Assembly: GCA_028277945.1 (NCBI GenBank)
Contig: JANQFH010000005.1
Span: 1-46,588, forward strand
Origin: Oligoflexia bacterium
Lineage (GTDB): Bacteria > Bdellovibrionota_G > JANQFH01
Direction of reading: 5' to 3'
DNA: 46,588 nucleotides
Translations under genes and position numbers: made by a program
Shown: piece after piece, positions 10,174 through 17,012 of the stretch
Layout: each line of letters starts with the position of its first letter
Position numbering within the stretch: position 1 is the stretch's first letter
The notes under the pieces: model-generated
Told to the model about the DNA's origin: nothing
Seen by the model: only the letters and a program-made list of their open reading frames with translations
Databases searched by the model: none

Positions 10174-10210
10174 AAAAAAGCCGTGCTAGCGCTGCTAGCA
10201 CGGCTTTTTT
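10174..10210 (-). terminator. Intrinsic terminator of the HU/IHF gene
   Basis: Perfect 17-base inverted repeat: left arm 10174-10190 (AAAAAAGCCGTGCTAGC), loop GCT at 10191-10193, right arm 10194-10210. The GC-rich part is followed by a run of six T on either strand, so it can terminate in both directions. It lies 21 bases beyond the stop of the HU-like gene and upstream of the LOG gene. Confidence 0.92.
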
Positions 10211-10565: not shown

Positions 10566-11384
10566 TTAATGGCTGCCAGATGCTTTGTCAAGCGAAAAGA
10601 TTTCGTGTAGCTTGCGGAAATTGGCTTCCAGCTTGATTGCGCAATGTTTGAGCCGTTTTCGCAGTTGGGATAACTGGCCCAAACCCCCTTGCCTGGCGAT
10701 TTTCGTGGCGTTTCGCAATTGCTGCCATGGTGTTTGACCGCCACTGACCAGCGACTGCAACGCTTGCGGCAACTCATCGCTTGCCTCATCTAAAACGCAA
10801 CGTAGTGCAACCCAAGGCACACGCTTCTCTTGCAAAAGTGAAGCAAGGTGATATGTTTCCAAGTCCACCGCCGCCACCGCGGTCTGCTGAAACAGCCGCT
10901 GCTTTTCCTCAACACGGCAGACAAGTCGATCAACAGTAAGCATAGAAGCGGAAGGAATTTCTAGTTGTGCGCAAACCAAGGCCAAATTCTTTTGGTCCAT
11001 GTCAATAGGTGTGCCAACAAACTGCTGCGCGGTTAAATCGTACTGAAAAAGTCGGTGACAGATAAAACAGTCAGCGGTGCTGATTTCACTCGAAAGCGCA
11101 CCGGCCACACCAACAATATAGGCAAAGTTAACTCGGTAATGCGACAAAACCCACTCACAACCATAACGGGCGTTTTCTCTACCCATACCGGTAATCGCTA
11201 ACAGCAACGCTGTTTGCATCTGATCGCCCCCGTAGTCACCTGCATAATTACCATCAAACAGTCGCATTGCGCCCTGTCGCTGGTGGCGCTGCACTTTAAA
11301 CTCTCTCTTTAAGGGGCTGATTTCATGAGCATTGGCAACAAAGAGCACCCCAACCTCGCCGCTAGGGGGCGCTACAGCATTCAT
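10566..11384 (-). CDS. Nucleoside phosphorylase/nucleosidase family protein
   Basis: 272 aa, PNP/MTA-SAH nucleosidase fold (PNP_UDP_1). Visible: an N-terminal strand VGVLFVANAHEISPLKREF; AITGMGRENA where the family has a GxGxxNA motif; VGVAGALS; and AVDLETYHLASLLQEKRVPWVALRCVLDEAS, matching the conserved nucleoside-binding region with a dimetal-free D/E pair. A basic helical tail of about 50 residues follows. It overlaps the end of purD by four bases, so it is co-translated with purine synthesis, which suggests a role with purine nucleosides. The hopanoid-associated phosphorylase branch (HpnG-like) is an alternative. The substrate is not assignable. Confidence 0.75.
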   Translation of the reverse strand: MNAVAPPSGEVGVLFVANAHEISPLKREFKVQRHQRQGAMRLFDGNYAGDYGGDQMQTALLLAITGMGRENARYGCEWVLSHYRVNFAYIVGVAGALSSEISTADCFICHRLFQYDLTAQQFVGTPIDMDQKNLALVCAQLEIPSASMLTVDRLVCRVEEKQRLFQQTAVAAVDLETYHLASLLQEKRVPWVALRCVLDEASDELPQALQSLVSGGQTPWQQLRNATKIARQGGLGQLSQLRKRLKHCAIKLEANFRKLHEIFSLDKASGSH

Positions 11385-12646
11385 GGTAGACCAATATCCT
11401 GGCGAAACTGCGCTCCTGGAAAAGAGAGGGCAGGTAGCTGCTTATAGGCAAGATCACGCGCCTGTTTGATATCGTGGGCGTGTACCGTTAAGCCAAGCAC
11501 ACGCCCTCCAGAGGTGACCAGCCGATCTCCTTGCATGGTTGTTCCCGCATGAAATAGCTTGATATCCTTGCCGCACGACTCTGCTGCCGCTTGCGGTAAT
11601 GGCAGGCCCTTTTCATAGGCTCCTGGATAGCCATCACTAGCCAAAACCACACAGAGAGAGCAACCTGATCGCCAACGGAAAGGTTCACTAGACAACTCAC
11701 CTCGAGCAACCGCTAAAAGATGCGGCAGCAGATCGCCATCGAAATGAAACAACAGCGGCTGCGCCTCAGGATCACCAAAACGAACATTGAACTCCAATAC
11801 CTGAGGTTCGCCCTCCTGTACCATCAACCCAGCATAGAGAACACCGTGGAAAGGCATTCCTTCTGCTTTAAGCTGATGTAGCACTGGGTAGAAGACCCGT
11901 TGCGCCACCCGATCCAAAAAGGCACTATCCAGCTCAGCAACCGGGGTGAAGGCCCCCATACCACCGGTGTTTGGCCCCTCACCCGCCTCCCGCAACGACT
12001 TGTGGTCGCGCGCAGGGAGCATCAGCCTAAACTCATCACCGCAGCAGAGACCGATAACCGACACCTCTCTGCCAGTAAGCATCGCCTCAACCAAAAGCCG
12101 CTCCCCTGACCTACCAAAGAGACGCTGCTCGATAAGCTTATTTACAAACGCCTCAGCTGCGGGATGCTCGTGACAGACGGCCACTCCCTTTCCCGCCGCC
12201 AGCCCGTCTGCTTTGATCACCAGCGGATAGCTAGCTTGCCGCAGGTGAGCTTGCACACTCGCCAGATCCCTAAAGGTGACAAATTCAGCAGTGGGCACAC
12301 CAGAGCGGTTCATAAGCTCCTTGGCAAAGATCTTGCTGCCCTCCAGCTGAGCTGCAGCAGCTGAGGGAGCCAAGATCAGTCGCCCTTGCTGGCGAAAACG
12401 ATCACCAATACCTTCAACTAGAGGCTGCTCCGGACCAACAATAGTGAGCTCAATATTGCGCTCACGAGCAAATTGCAGCAATCCGTCGTAGTCATCCACC
12501 GCTATGGCGACATTCTCAACTTTGGCCTCCATCGCCGTACCGGCGTTACCTGGAACGCAGTAGAGACGCTCTACCAACGGGCTCTGGGAAATCTTCCAGC
12601 ACAGCGCATGCTCTCTGCCACCGCCGCCTATCACCAATACATTCAT
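11381..12646 (-). CDS. purD: Phosphoribosylamine--glycine ligase
   Basis: Makes glycinamide ribonucleotide (GAR), step 2 of de novo purine synthesis; ATP-grasp enzyme, cytoplasmic. 421 aa from the ATG at 12646, which has GTAGG six bases upstream; a TTG two codons earlier is less likely. Visible: MNVLVIGGGGREHAL at the start, KADGLAAGKGV, GPNTGGMGAFTP, and FNVRFGDPEAQPLL carrying Mg2+ ligands. It begins eight bases after the stop of the large TPR gene and overlaps the nucleoside phosphorylase that follows, so the three likely share a transcript. Confidence 0.97.
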   Translation of the reverse strand: MNVLVIGGGGREHALCWKISQSPLVERLYCVPGNAGTAMEAKVENVAIAVDDYDGLLQFARERNIELTIVGPEQPLVEGIGDRFRQQGRLILAPSAAAAQLEGSKIFAKELMNRSGVPTAEFVTFRDLASVQAHLRQASYPLVIKADGLAAGKGVAVCHEHPAAEAFVNKLIEQRLFGRSGERLLVEAMLTGREVSVIGLCCGDEFRLMLPARDHKSLREAGEGPNTGGMGAFTPVAELDSAFLDRVAQRVFYPVLHQLKAEGMPFHGVLYAGLMVQEGEPQVLEFNVRFGDPEAQPLLFHFDGDLLPHLLAVARGELSSEPFRWRSGCSLCVVLASDGYPGAYEKGLPLPQAAAESCGKDIKLFHAGTTMQGDRLVTSGGRVLGLTVHAHDIKQARDLAYKQLPALSFPGAQFRQDIGLP

Positions 12647-12653
12647 AACCAAC

Positions 12654-15116
12654 CTACCCTGACTGACTAAACTTACCGGAAAACACCTCGGTTAACGCTG
12701 GATAGTAGTGAAGCGGCGCAGCAGCGCAACGAAAAAGTGCATCTCGCTGCTTAAGCGGTTGGTTTCTGCGCAGATCCACTCGCATCTGGATTAAGCTGCG
12801 ACGGCAGCCGGCCTTGCCTGCTAGTTCAGGCAGGGTATGCAACAGCTGTTCGGTTCTCTCTATTTGGTTGGCAAGACTCAGAGCTTCGAGAAAGACCAGT
12901 TTGCCAAATAGAGAGAGTGAGGCAAAAGAGCTATTCGCTGCAAGCAGCGCAGCCGCTTGCTCGGCTTGGTTACGCCGATTGAGGATCTCGGCAAGGAAGA
13001 GGTAGGCGGGAACAAAACCCTGCTGCTTCGTTGCCTGCTGCAGCAGCCGCTCTGCCTCACTGAGCTTGCCCCGCACAAGATAGATGGCTGCTGCGGCCAC
13101 ACTAAATGGTGCTGCCAACGGCTTACTCTCTGCCCAAAGCTTGGCGACCTCGGTTGCAGGATAGGCAGCAAAATCGATTCGGTTCCAACGGTCTCTATAT
13201 TGACTTTCTGGATAGTCCAGCCAGACATTTGCCAGCCCTTGGCGCAATACGCTCTCAGCAGCCTCCTGCTGCGCCTGTTTGGTATAGAGAGAGGCGAGCT
13301 CCAGGAGCAGCGCTAGAGATTCTGGAAACCGCTCTACCTGCTCACTCATGAGACGAATGGCGGCAACGTTATCACCCAGCTGCTGATGGGTGCGCGACAG
13401 CGTAACCAAGACGGGCAGTGAATCTGGCTGCAACAGCTGTGCTCGCTGTAGGAGTTCAAGAGCCTGACTATGTTGTTTCTTGATGTTAAGAAGCTGAACG
13501 CGTTTAAGCAGCAGGGGCACAAAGTAAGGCGAGATCTTAAGAGCGGCGTTGCAATTTGTGGTTGCCGCAACAAGGTCTTTCTGTTGCAGGTGGATGCTAC
13601 AGAGATGATAGAAGGCGTATCTCTTTTCAGCTTCTGTTGCTATCGAACTGTAACGCTCGATGATTTCGCGCAGATTGCGCGCAGCGCTGTCAGGTTCGTC
13701 AAGCTCTTGATAGTAGAGAAAACTGAGGCGCAACCTAGCTTCGATATAGGCGGGATGGTGGCGTAAAGCCTGTTGATACAGTTGCGCTGCGCGCTTCACC
13801 TTACCTGTCAACTCCTGCAGAAACCCCATCTGTGTTAGGGTTCTCGGGTGATCGGCATCAAGGGCTTGCCGACGCTTTAGCGCCTGCAGTGCCGCATAGA
13901 GATCGCCCTGTTGCAGATAGGCCTGTGCCAGCCAGTTCAATGCCTCTCGCAGCTGTGGCTGCGTTGTTGCTGGCAGCGCACGCAGCTCGCCAATGGTTTT
14001 TATAAGTTCACTGTTGAGACCTATGCGGGCAATACTACGGTACATCTGCATACGAGCATCGTTGCCAATCTGCTGATGTTTTGCCATCGCCTCCCGACTA
14101 ACTCTAAGTGCGGCCTGGTAATTGGCCGCACCAATCAACGTCGCCACTTGGGCGCGATATCCATAAGGAGCAGCCGGAAGACGCTGTTTCGCAGCTGCTG
14201 CCAACACCAACGCCTGTTGCTTGAGCTCTAGATCTCGCTTTTGCGCAGAGATGTAGGCTTCTGCCTCACCTAACAACCCGGCGACCACCATGCTGTCTTT
14301 GTCGATTACGAGAGCCTGTTTGAGTTCTCTTTCAGCCTCCAGGTAGGACTCAAAGCGATCTGCTGCCATGGCCTGCTGGACACGCTTGATGCTCTTTTGC
14401 ACCGCTGCCACCATAGTCTTTTGGTCTGCTGGCAACAGATCGGAGCGAGACTCTTGCTGGATTTGCTGCCAAACTCGACCGTAAGCTGCCATTTCATGCG
14501 ACGTTGGCTTTTGCCTCTCTTTGGCAAATTTAAGCGGGTTGATGTAGACAAGCAGATAGGCAAAGATTATCACAATTGAGAATATCAAAAGTCGACGCGT
14601 CAGCTTTGCATACCAGAAACGTTTCAGCTGTCCGCGCCTTCTTGGACTCTTGCTAACCTGTTTAGGCTGAGTAGCTGCAAAAAATTCGGCAAAGTCTTCA
14701 CACTGCGCTATGGAGACCCGTGATTGCCCTGGACCGCTGACGTGGTCATCACGGGAAAAAAAGCCTTTGTCGGCAAGTTCTTGCAGCTCACTAAGCGAAG
14801 TCGGGCCAAAAACTCGGCCATCCCGACGAAAGACTGTCCACTGGTTACCAGTGGTATCTAGCTCAATCTCACTACTACGACAGTCGTCACAGACCGGAAC
14901 AGCTGCCGCACCACTGTCACGAAATGAACGGCCACACTTCACACAGCGGCGCTCTGCACCTTTGTCATCTTCTGCAAAGAGAAGTTTGACAATGTTGCCT
15001 TGCTTGTTGACGATAATAGCAAACTCTTTGCCACAGATCGGACAATTGCCTTTGGCCGAGTCCGGAATGGTATCGACAACGATATCACCCTGACACTGTT
15101 TACACCGCGCCAACAT
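12654..15116 (-). CDS. Double zinc-ribbon, GYF_2-like, membrane-anchored TPR protein
   Basis: 820 aa, function unknown. Order: two zinc ribbons (Cys5, 8, 25, 28 and Cys58, 61, 76, 79); a GYF_2/DUF4339-like domain at about 92-140 (WTVFRRDGRVFGPTSLSELQ); a basic linker; one TM segment at about 174-193; then more than 600 residues of TPR-like helical repeats to the end. The cytoplasmic N-terminus looks like a sensing or docking module and the TPR part would lie outside the inner membrane. This is the zinc-ribbon + TM + extracytoplasmic module plan also used by the protease at 1517. It sits upstream of purD with an eight-base gap and downstream of the hairpin-rich region at 15133-15377. The RBS is weak. 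Confidence 0.8.
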   Translation of the reverse strand: MLARCKQCQGDIVVDTIPDSAKGNCPICGKEFAIIVNKQGNIVKLLFAEDDKGAERRCVKCGRSFRDSGAAAVPVCDDCRSSEIELDTTGNQWTVFRRDGRVFGPTSLSELQELADKGFFSRDDHVSGPGQSRVSIAQCEDFAEFFAATQPKQVSKSPRRRGQLKRFWYAKLTRRLLIFSIVIIFAYLLVYINPLKFAKERQKPTSHEMAAYGRVWQQIQQESRSDLLPADQKTMVAAVQKSIKRVQQAMAADRFESYLEAERELKQALVIDKDSMVVAGLLGEAEAYISAQKRDLELKQQALVLAAAAKQRLPAAPYGYRAQVATLIGAANYQAALRVSREAMAKHQQIGNDARMQMYRSIARIGLNSELIKTIGELRALPATTQPQLREALNWLAQAYLQQGDLYAALQALKRRQALDADHPRTLTQMGFLQELTGKVKRAAQLYQQALRHHPAYIEARLRLSFLYYQELDEPDSAARNLREIIERYSSIATEAEKRYAFYHLCSIHLQQKDLVAATTNCNAALKISPYFVPLLLKRVQLLNIKKQHSQALELLQRAQLLQPDSLPVLVTLSRTHQQLGDNVAAIRLMSEQVERFPESLALLLELASLYTKQAQQEAAESVLRQGLANVWLDYPESQYRDRWNRIDFAAYPATEVAKLWAESKPLAAPFSVAAAAIYLVRGKLSEAERLLQQATKQQGFVPAYLFLAEILNRRNQAEQAAALLAANSSFASLSLFGKLVFLEALSLANQIERTEQLLHTLPELAGKAGCRRSLIQMRVDLRRNQPLKQRDALFRCAAAPLHYYPALTEVFSGKFSQSG

Positions 15117-15132
15117 ACATCAAAAAATCTAG

Positions 15133-15253
15133 CTTAACGTCATCTCTATAGGCGTGTCCAACCAGCCTTCGGCGAATGGCTCGTCGGCCTCCGGCCTCCT
15201 GCGCTTGATTTCGCCTCAGGCTGGTTGGACACGCCTGCAGAGGTGAGGTTAAA
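15133..15253 (+). repeat. Structured hairpin element A (covarying pair)
   Basis: Perfect 17-base arms: GGCGTGTCCAACCAGCC (15151-15167) and its complement at 15219-15235. The stem extends outward imperfectly, 13 of 18 positions matching, to 15133 and 15253. The 51-base core (15168-15218) has an inner 6-bp stem, GGCGAA (15171-15176) with TTCGCC (15210-15215). It also holds the blocks AATGGCTCG and CTGCGCTT, both shared with element B on the opposite strand. It lies in the non-coding gap between purH and the TPR gene. It has no U-run, so it is not a classical terminator. Confidence 0.85.
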
Positions 15254-15294
15254 CGAGATGACTTTTGAACTCTGCTGGACACGCTCTCTGCTAG

Positions 15295-15377
15295 CGATGG
15301 TACGACAACCTGAGAGAAAATAAAGCGCAGCCGAGCGGAGCGAGGCGAGCCATTTCTCGAAGGTTGTCGTACCATCG
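15295..15377 (-). repeat. Structured hairpin element B (covarying pair, inverted)
   Basis: Perfect 17-base arms, CGATGGTACGACAACCT at 15295-15311 and the complement at 15361-15377. Read on the minus strand its core is again 51 bases, counting one base of each arm. It aligns without gaps to element A: TTCG, 3 variable bases, AATGGCTCG, 15 variable bases, CTGCGCTT, one base, ATTT, 3 variable bases, CTCA. The two 3-base variable blocks pair with each other in both elements (GCG/CGC in A, AGA/TCT in B). A looser copy of the arm spelling (tggacacgc) lies just left of B at 15276-15284. Confidence 0.85.
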
Positions 15378-15449
15378 GTAAGGCAGGCGTGTGTAGCAAA
15401 GACAAAACCATTGCTTTTAACGTTGCCAAAGTAGTTGTGAGACATCGCA

Positions 15450-17012
15450 CTAATGCCTGAAATGGCGAGCACCCGTGAAGATCATCGTCATGTCGTGCTC
15501 ATTGGCCGCCTCAATGACCTCATCGTCGCGAATGCTCCCACCCGGTTGCACCACCGCACGGATGCCGGCACTGTGGGCAAGATCTATGCTATCCCGGAAG
15601 GGAAAGAAGGCATCAGAAGCGAGCACGGCCGCTGCAAGACCGTGCGCATGATTACTCGAGGCCTTGTCCACGGCAATCTTTACGGCATCAACACGGCTCA
15701 TCTGACCTGCACCAATACCAAGCGTCTGCTTGTCACTGGCAATAACAATGGCGTTGGACTTGACCCATTTGCATGCCTTCCAGGAAAATTGTAATGCTCT
15801 GAGCTCCGCTGCATTTGGCTGACGAGCTGTCACTACCTTAGCGCTCTGTAGATCTTCACACATAGCATCTCGTTGTTGCACGAGATAGCCTAGCAGTGTG
15901 CTATGCACAACCATGCTAGACGCCAGCTGTGACGGCAAAGGCAGTGCGACCTGGAGCAGACGCACCTTCTTTTTTCGTTTCAGCTGCTGTAAAGCAGCCG
16001 CATCAAACCCTGGCGCGGCAATGACCTCAAAAAAACAGCTATGCAGCTTCTCTGCCGTGGTCAGATCAACAGGCTGGGTAAAGCCAACCACACCACCAAA
16101 AGCAGAGATCGAGTCTGATGCCATGGCTAAATCAAAAGCCGCGTCAAGAGAACCTTGCGGCGCAATGGCAATCCCACATGGATTGGAGTGTTTGACAATC
16201 ACACAGGCGGTTTCATCGCGGTATTCACTAAGCACACCGAGGCAGCCATCGAGATCGAGAAGATTATTGTAAGAGAGTGGTTTGCCACCCAACTGTTCTG
16301 GTTCCAGCAGGGTTGCCTCGTCTCGGTAGAGCGCTGCGCGTTGATGTGGGTTCTCACCATAGGCAAGATCCAACTCCTTGACCAAGTCAAGACGGTAAGT
16401 AGTGTCTAAAGGCTGTTGGTCCACGTATCTCTTAATGAGGTAGCTGCCAATTTGCGCATCATAGGTGGCAGTCAGGTTAACCGCTGCAGCAGCAAACTTG
16501 CCGCTAAGCTCCGATGGAATGGCGCCATGGTTTGCCTGCAGAGCACTCAAGAAAGGTGGATACTGGGTGGGATCAGAAAGCACCACACAACAGCTGTGGT
16601 TTTTTGCTGCTGCTCGCAACATGGCCACACCGCCGATATCGACAAATTCCATCATATGCTGCAAGTCCCTGCCGTGATCGGCAAGTTCCCGATGAAACGG
16701 ATAGAGGTTGTTGACAACAAGCTGGATCGGCGTGATACCGTGTTGTTCCAGGCTTGTCTTATCGCTCTGCTGCTGTCGTGCTAGCAACGCCGCAAAAATC
16801 TTCGGATGTAATGTCTTGACCCTGCCCTCAAGAATCTCTGGAAAACCCGTCACCGTCTTGACGGTCTCACAGGGTATGCCGAGCTGCTGAATAAAGCGGG
16901 CGGTTCCGCCGGTGGATACGATCTCACATGAGACTGCGTGCAGTGCGCGAACTAATTCTTCGAGACCACTCTTATCATAGACGCTGACAACGGCACGTTG
17001 GATTTTAATCAT
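15450..17012 (-). CDS. purH: Bifunctional AICAR formyltransferase / IMP cyclohydrolase
   Basis: Last two steps of de novo purine synthesis, AICAR to FAICAR to IMP; cytoplasmic, 520 aa, full length. IMP cyclohydrolase (MGS-like) domain at 1-150: [35 protein letters not shown]. Transformylase domain after about 200: [45 protein letters not shown], and the terminal FTGARHFRH. It starts nine bases after the mlaD stop, so it is probably the last gene of the alr-mla transcript. It is unusual for purH to sit in an envelope-lipid operon. Confidence 0.97.

Follow-up and report, generated by a model that had tools for sequence, protein, structure and literature searches.

Very strong covariation between the two sides of a stem generally counts as the best sign that an RNA is functional. 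Hairpins that resemble one another across a bacterial genome may also belong to repeats such as the GTAG-type REPs and REPINs, which are mobilized by a RAYT (Y1 HUH) transposase that recognizes the single-stranded hairpin. A second REP type, which we recognized by a CGTC tag at the foot, an 8-9 bp stem and a loop of 4-5, has no known dedicated transposase (PMC3733652). Bacterial MITEs were taken to have TIRs of 15-30 bp, a length of 70-300 bp and no coding capacity. Perfect stems can arise and be preserved through template switching (PMC8794818), which also homogenizes arms and inverts spacers (PMC8604942). In E. coli without SbcCD and RecA, interrupted palindromes can seed inverted duplications (PMC3315005).

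Results

The window, a stretch of 46,588 nt from an Oligoflexia bacterium (contig JANQFH010000005.1), has two hairpins between purH and a TPR gene (Table 1). They lie in opposite orientation, as the sequence-only reading had described, which also gave both hairpins perfect 17-base arms, a spacing of 59 bases and 51-base cores aligning without gaps when B is read on the minus strand. The 17-bp arms were confirmed for hairpin B, while those of hairpin A are 19 bp long; the two hairpins are a close pair, at a measured distance of 58 bp, and the ungapped alignment held with a spacer of 49 nt inside each hairpin. The reported exchange of GCG/CGC against AGA/TCT between the cores is real. Common to both cores are ATGGCTCG, a short variable GC stem and CTGCGCTTKATT. 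Perfect inverted repeats whose arms have at least 17 bp and whose loop is up to 120 number only three in the whole window, and our rough chance expectation for 17-bp arms (<0.001) agrees with the earlier estimate of far less than one per window. The third of these repeats (10174-10210; 17-bp perfect arms, 3-nt loop) is probably an ordinary terminator-like stem.

Table 1. Positions of the repeat element, its parts and neighboring genes in the window, and of core-free palindromes at sampled loci
Feature	Position	Strand	Basis or remark
Composite repeat element in the purH-TPR gap	15117-15452	none	Alignment of composite copies; ORF-gap ends; right TIR-like end 15452; left end uncertain, may overlap the TPR gene at its 5' end
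TIR-like right end (TAGTGCGATGTCTCACA; family consensus TAGTRTYYTGYCCCACA)	15436-15452	-	4 mismatches to a consensus drawn by eye; weak here
purH	15450-17012	-	Pfam AICARFT/IMPCHase and MGS
purH-TPR gap, containing both hairpins	15117-15449		ORF ends 15116 and 15450
TPR gene	12654-15116	-	Beyond the purH gap, followed by purD
purD	11381-12652	-	
Hairpin A with imperfect outer stem	15127-15259	+	50-nt arms, 84% complementary; fold -80.7 kcal/mol
Hairpin A, left perfect arm (AGGCGTGTCCAACCAGCCT)	15150-15168	+	Inverted-repeat search
Hairpin A, right perfect arm	15218-15236	+	Inverted-repeat search
Hairpin A, asymmetric conserved core	15176-15211	+	Genome-wide pattern matches; invariant columns, n=28 copies
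Hairpin A core, ATGGCTCG	15176-15183		
Hairpin A core, inner GC stem	15184-15198		
Hairpin A core, CTGCGCTTGATT	15199-15210		
Hairpin B, perfect arm, 3' side on minus strand	15295-15311	-	Inverted-repeat search
Hairpin B, perfect arm, 5' side on minus strand	15361-15377	-	Inverted-repeat search
Hairpin B, conserved core	15318-15353	-	Inner stem differs from A (CCTCGCTCCGCTCGG)
Core-free long palindromes	L064:1204-1500, L111:2120-2312, L135:3278-3416, L082:2443-2620, L125:4757-5118, L068:7300-7469, L076:5743-5914		

We searched the window's genome with a covariance model, a check that had been proposed for this locus, and found further copies, the hairpins numbering 31 (E<=0.001) across many contigs; an exact pattern recovered 27 cores. 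Copies that keep the core and lose arm pairing, which had been named as evidence against the family, were not what this search returned. Nearly all family copies are intergenic. Composites with one A-type and one B-type hairpin were found at 12 of the 21 loci compared, with inverted orientation in most. The composite in the window takes up the whole purH-TPR gap, is about 340 bp long, is non-coding and holds both inverted hairpins; its full-length or better-preserved relatives measure 341-351 bp, have no ORF of their own and carry weak TIR-like ends of about 18 bp (TAGTRTYYTGYCCCACAA). We infer, with less certainty, that the composite of about 340 bp with its two inverted hairpins is the spreading unit in the window's genome. 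A covariance-model search of four genomes of the same phylum recovered no copy. The 31 genomic copies, their intergenic location, the mostly inverted pairs and the relatives in other genomes bear out the suggestion of a REP/MITE-like family, and the hairpins are best filed as a copy of a dispersed, intergenic, non-coding REP/MITE-like repeat of a new family that has neither a GTAG tag nor a RAYT beside it. At L214, L221, L228 and L229 of the window's genome (copies c08, c28, c29 and c36) the inner stem is swapped for other hairpins of about 70-100 nt, so the element would appear to take in further repeats.

To place the core outside this genome we scanned 85,000 species genomes, the matches listed being a lower bound. 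The core occurs in at least the Gammaproteobacteria MAGs JABDFQ, MGYC, JAHJDF, JAMCWR, JAHZKQ and JAJNBC and also, among the matches listed, in MAGs of Legionellaceae, Coxiellaceae, Myxococcales (DUCN), Deltaproteobacteria (DRKE) and an unplaced proteobacterium (JADFNS). In nearly all true matches it sits at the center of a palindrome whose arm sequence differs from genome to genome, the arms being unrelated sequences of up to 155 bp; the evidence beyond the window's genome is mostly from MAGs, and the long arms come from MAG assemblies. The Legionella copies have one common arm type. At L085, L088, L108, L117 and L121 (Legionella/Legionellaceae) the common arms are 41-42 bp long and end in TATAG(T)CGATTAAATTT..., which we take to resemble the ends of Correia-type MITEs. 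A few armless matches (for example in Rhizobium, Alkalicoccobacillus and Cloacimonetes) have the look of chance hits. Carriers are scattered, with the core in 4 of 274 sampled Gammaproteobacteria and in 2/39 genomes of a set comprising JABDFQ and its relatives. No copy was found in the viral contigs searched, and no paper on the core or on the accompanying repeat sequences turned up in the literature. Comparison of the copies shows a core conserved across genomes and phyla, set in arms that appear to be replaceable.

The covariation score of 28 diverse cross-genome copies was 0.734, compared to 0.178 (sd 0.017) after shuffling and 0.12-0.22 (maximum 0.215) when the structure was slid along the same copies. 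Fifteen of 16 outer pairs had changed on both sides, and G-U made up about 1.5% of the paired cells of the outer stem. Within the window's genome, left arms matched their own right arms better than the right arms of other copies, both for the A type (0.775 versus 0.711) and for the B type (0.884 versus 0.788; permutation p<=5e-5 for each type).

We analyzed the arms further in JABDFQ, where 27 palindromes showed 31 mismatches in 2030 arm positions, the longest arms being 155 bp, and where the core was identical in 29/30 exact-pattern copies. The loci L112 and L133 of this MAG have common arms. Several substitutions and a 19-nt indel separate the two loci, and almost every one of these differences is found in both arms. 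Of the 26 arms searched, 9 occur at no other sampled locus. Mismatch rose slightly past 100 bp from the core, a trend too weak to use. Both cores at C47:23283-23492 in the window's genome are inverted between outer arms that are unchanged, and a B/A hybrid with its junction at the core is found at C10:488046. Multi-base and indel changes in both arms and a spacer inverted between unchanged arms are features expected of template switching, and the compensated indel, the locus-unique arms and the inverted cores appear to be the signature of arm-to-arm copying during replication. Copying of the arms can be read almost directly from the data; we infer that the copying process is template switching. 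The outer stems in the window's genome are imperfect, suggesting that copying has not been recent at every locus. The likeness to quasi-palindrome correction and template-switch mutations lies in arm homogenization, compensated multi-base changes and spacer inversion (PMC8794818, PMC8604942); the known events are sporadic at unrelated palindromes, whereas those described here recur around one conserved core.

The arms differ yet stay matched, apparently through repeated copying of one arm onto the other. The sequence-only reading had held that compensated stems imply selection on structure. In that form the claim finds no support: the compensated indels, the long arms unique to one locus and the inverted cores reveal that arms are rewritten by copying, and such rewriting yields covariation without selection for pairing. 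The very strong covariation is thus not good evidence for RNA function, and selection for a foldable hairpin may be an additional force beside copying.

No SbcD match exceeded the family cut-off in the 43 genomes examined, carriers and non-carriers (G000, G001-G004, G191-G228), a set that includes the window's genome and its phylum. SbcD was thus missing not only in the carriers but in 22 non-carriers related to JABDFQ; it was above its cut-off in 18 of 143 sampled Gammaproteobacteria. Loss of SbcD as the specific cause was rejected as non-discriminating, given its absence from non-carriers and most sampled Gammaproteobacteria; an absence so common in the group is permissive at best.

Other candidate functions were tried and rejected. 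The element is not an intrinsic terminator, as its GC stem lacks a following T run. A peptide from the core (ATG GCT CG..., open in the common form) is contradicted by the K=G variant, which gives a stop, and by lengths of 29, 37, 43 and 46 nt, which break the frame. The outer arm GTTTAAC/GTTAAAC resembles the R boxes of an integron attC, but the copies lie scattered and form no cassette arrays, as judged from sequence only.

Discussion

We propose, with a probability of about 0.72, that the element is a dispersed REP/MITE-like repeat whose identity lies in the asymmetric tip core (ATGGCTCG-variable inner stem-CTGCGCTTKATT) and whose replaceable arms are rebuilt by copying. Replication would leave the region single-stranded, allowing the hairpin to fold; the polymerase could then switch template at the folded hairpin and copy one arm onto the other, which would repair, rewrite and sometimes lengthen the palindrome. 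The core probably serves for recognition or nucleates the hairpin, and the conservation of both its strands across phyla together with the variable inner stem would fit protein recognition of the folded strand. We are less sure that recognition by a mobilizing or hairpin-binding factor keeps the core, so that the unit still spreads; no partner or mobilizing enzyme was identified among the candidates tested. A bolder version, in which the core is recognized or cut at its tip, the flanks are copied into inverted repeats and the core spreads bare between distant phyla, rebuilding locus-specific arms, is possible but doubtful. The locus offers a natural example in which mutation by copying accounts for very strong stem covariation. 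The copies also point to a repeat family defined by a 20-nt asymmetric tip and not by its arms, and living bacteria that carry them could be used to study the origin, growth and persistence of long perfect palindromes when SbcCD is missing.

We considered whether the element might be a structured regulatory or stabilizing RNA, transcribed with purH, the TPR gene and purD, whose stems covary under selection for pairing. The very strong covariation, the stable folds and the position between two same-strand genes, where the element is probably transcribed, would suit such an RNA. An Rfam scan gave nothing real, with no match above the gathering score, and there is no T-tract terminator; G-U pairs are few, and the core in codirectional gaps was oriented with the genes in 22 cases and against them in 17, without clear bias, a mixture that speaks against an RNA role. 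The compensated 19-nt indel and the locus-unique arms would also be unexpected under pairwise selection. The structured-RNA interpretation offered earlier found no positive support on these counts, and we regard it as very improbable. It is somewhat less improbable, though still unlikely, that the core is a small insertion targeting the tips of existing palindromes, the arms being pre-existing sites that are not rebuilt. The MAGs with long arms do have core-free long palindromes as well, with 17 inverted repeats in 208 kb of JABDFQ loci and 14 in 104 kb of MGYC loci. However, short inner arms common to the copies grade into locus-specific outer arms, and the compensated differences between paralogous copies would still require arm copying.

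Mobilization as a GTAG-type REP/REPIN by a RAYT was tested and is unsupported. The element has several REP traits, being a dispersed, intergenic, palindromic hairpin with an irregular stem, and its imperfect hairpins, many copies and mostly inverted pairs recall BIMEs, REPINs and TnpA-REP systems. Its variable GC-rich inner loops resemble those of GTAG-3 REPs (PMC3733652), and the window's genome has two Y1_Tnp genes. The element flanks neither of them. GTAG stood at the arm feet of 5/49 palindromes against 8.2 expected by shuffling, which is no enrichment (the 49 palindromes of the GTAG and CGTC foot counts belong to four MAGs; for GTAG, the window's genome was inspected visually). Of the 16 other carriers only 6 had a Y1_Tnp match, and a different repeat (GGTCGCATCTCG) flanks the Y1 gene of JABDFQ. 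Among the other carriers' 15 Y1 loci, a single one has a core copy nearby, at about 400 bp, next to an IS200-like gene bounded by other repeats. Unlike GTAG-type REPs, the element has no GTAG tag, no element-flanked RAYT where tested, and far longer, non-conserved arms with the conserved part at the tip; we consider RAYT mobilization distinctly unlikely. The CGTC-tagged REPs are likewise palindromic and dispersed, and look-alike repeats occur in some of the same genomes. A CGTC foot was found in 7/49 palindromes versus 3.6 expected, the stems and loops here are far longer, the cores differ in length, and the CGTC-like repeats in JABDFQ are parts of arms, not of the core. An ordinary MITE of a DDE transposon, with the hairpins merely its terminal repeats, is about as improbable as RAYT mobilization. 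The non-coding, intergenic composite with its TIR-like ends is similar to bacterial MITEs such as Correia/NEMIS, and the Legionella copies end in TATAG...CTATA-like arms. Against this, the TIRs are weak and variable, a TIR search returned mainly element copies and chance matches, no clear target-site duplication or autonomous partner was found, and the same core lies within wholly different, unrelated ends in different genomes.

In the genomes with long arms, long palindromes with other centers indicate that palindrome building is not limited to the core, and in JABDFQ and MGYC it seems to be genome-wide. The core-free palindromes of these two MAGs are near-perfect, with arms of 44-127 bp, and several are built on GTCATCCTGAGCG...CGAAGGATCT repeats. 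The gene inverted repeats of Nematomorpha mitochondria, in the part of the account consulted, are comparable in being numerous, very long and perfect; they differ in having coding arms, and that part does not mention a shared core (PMC6649704). The Y1 transposase gene of JABDFQ (L145:1128-2620) has GGTCGCATCTCG repeats on both sides in a REPtron-like arrangement, and the same repeat is also found inside the arms of some core palindromes. At L149:1300-2080, in a Coxiellaceae MAG, an IS200-like gene is bounded by its own long inverted repeats, with a core palindrome about 400 bp away.
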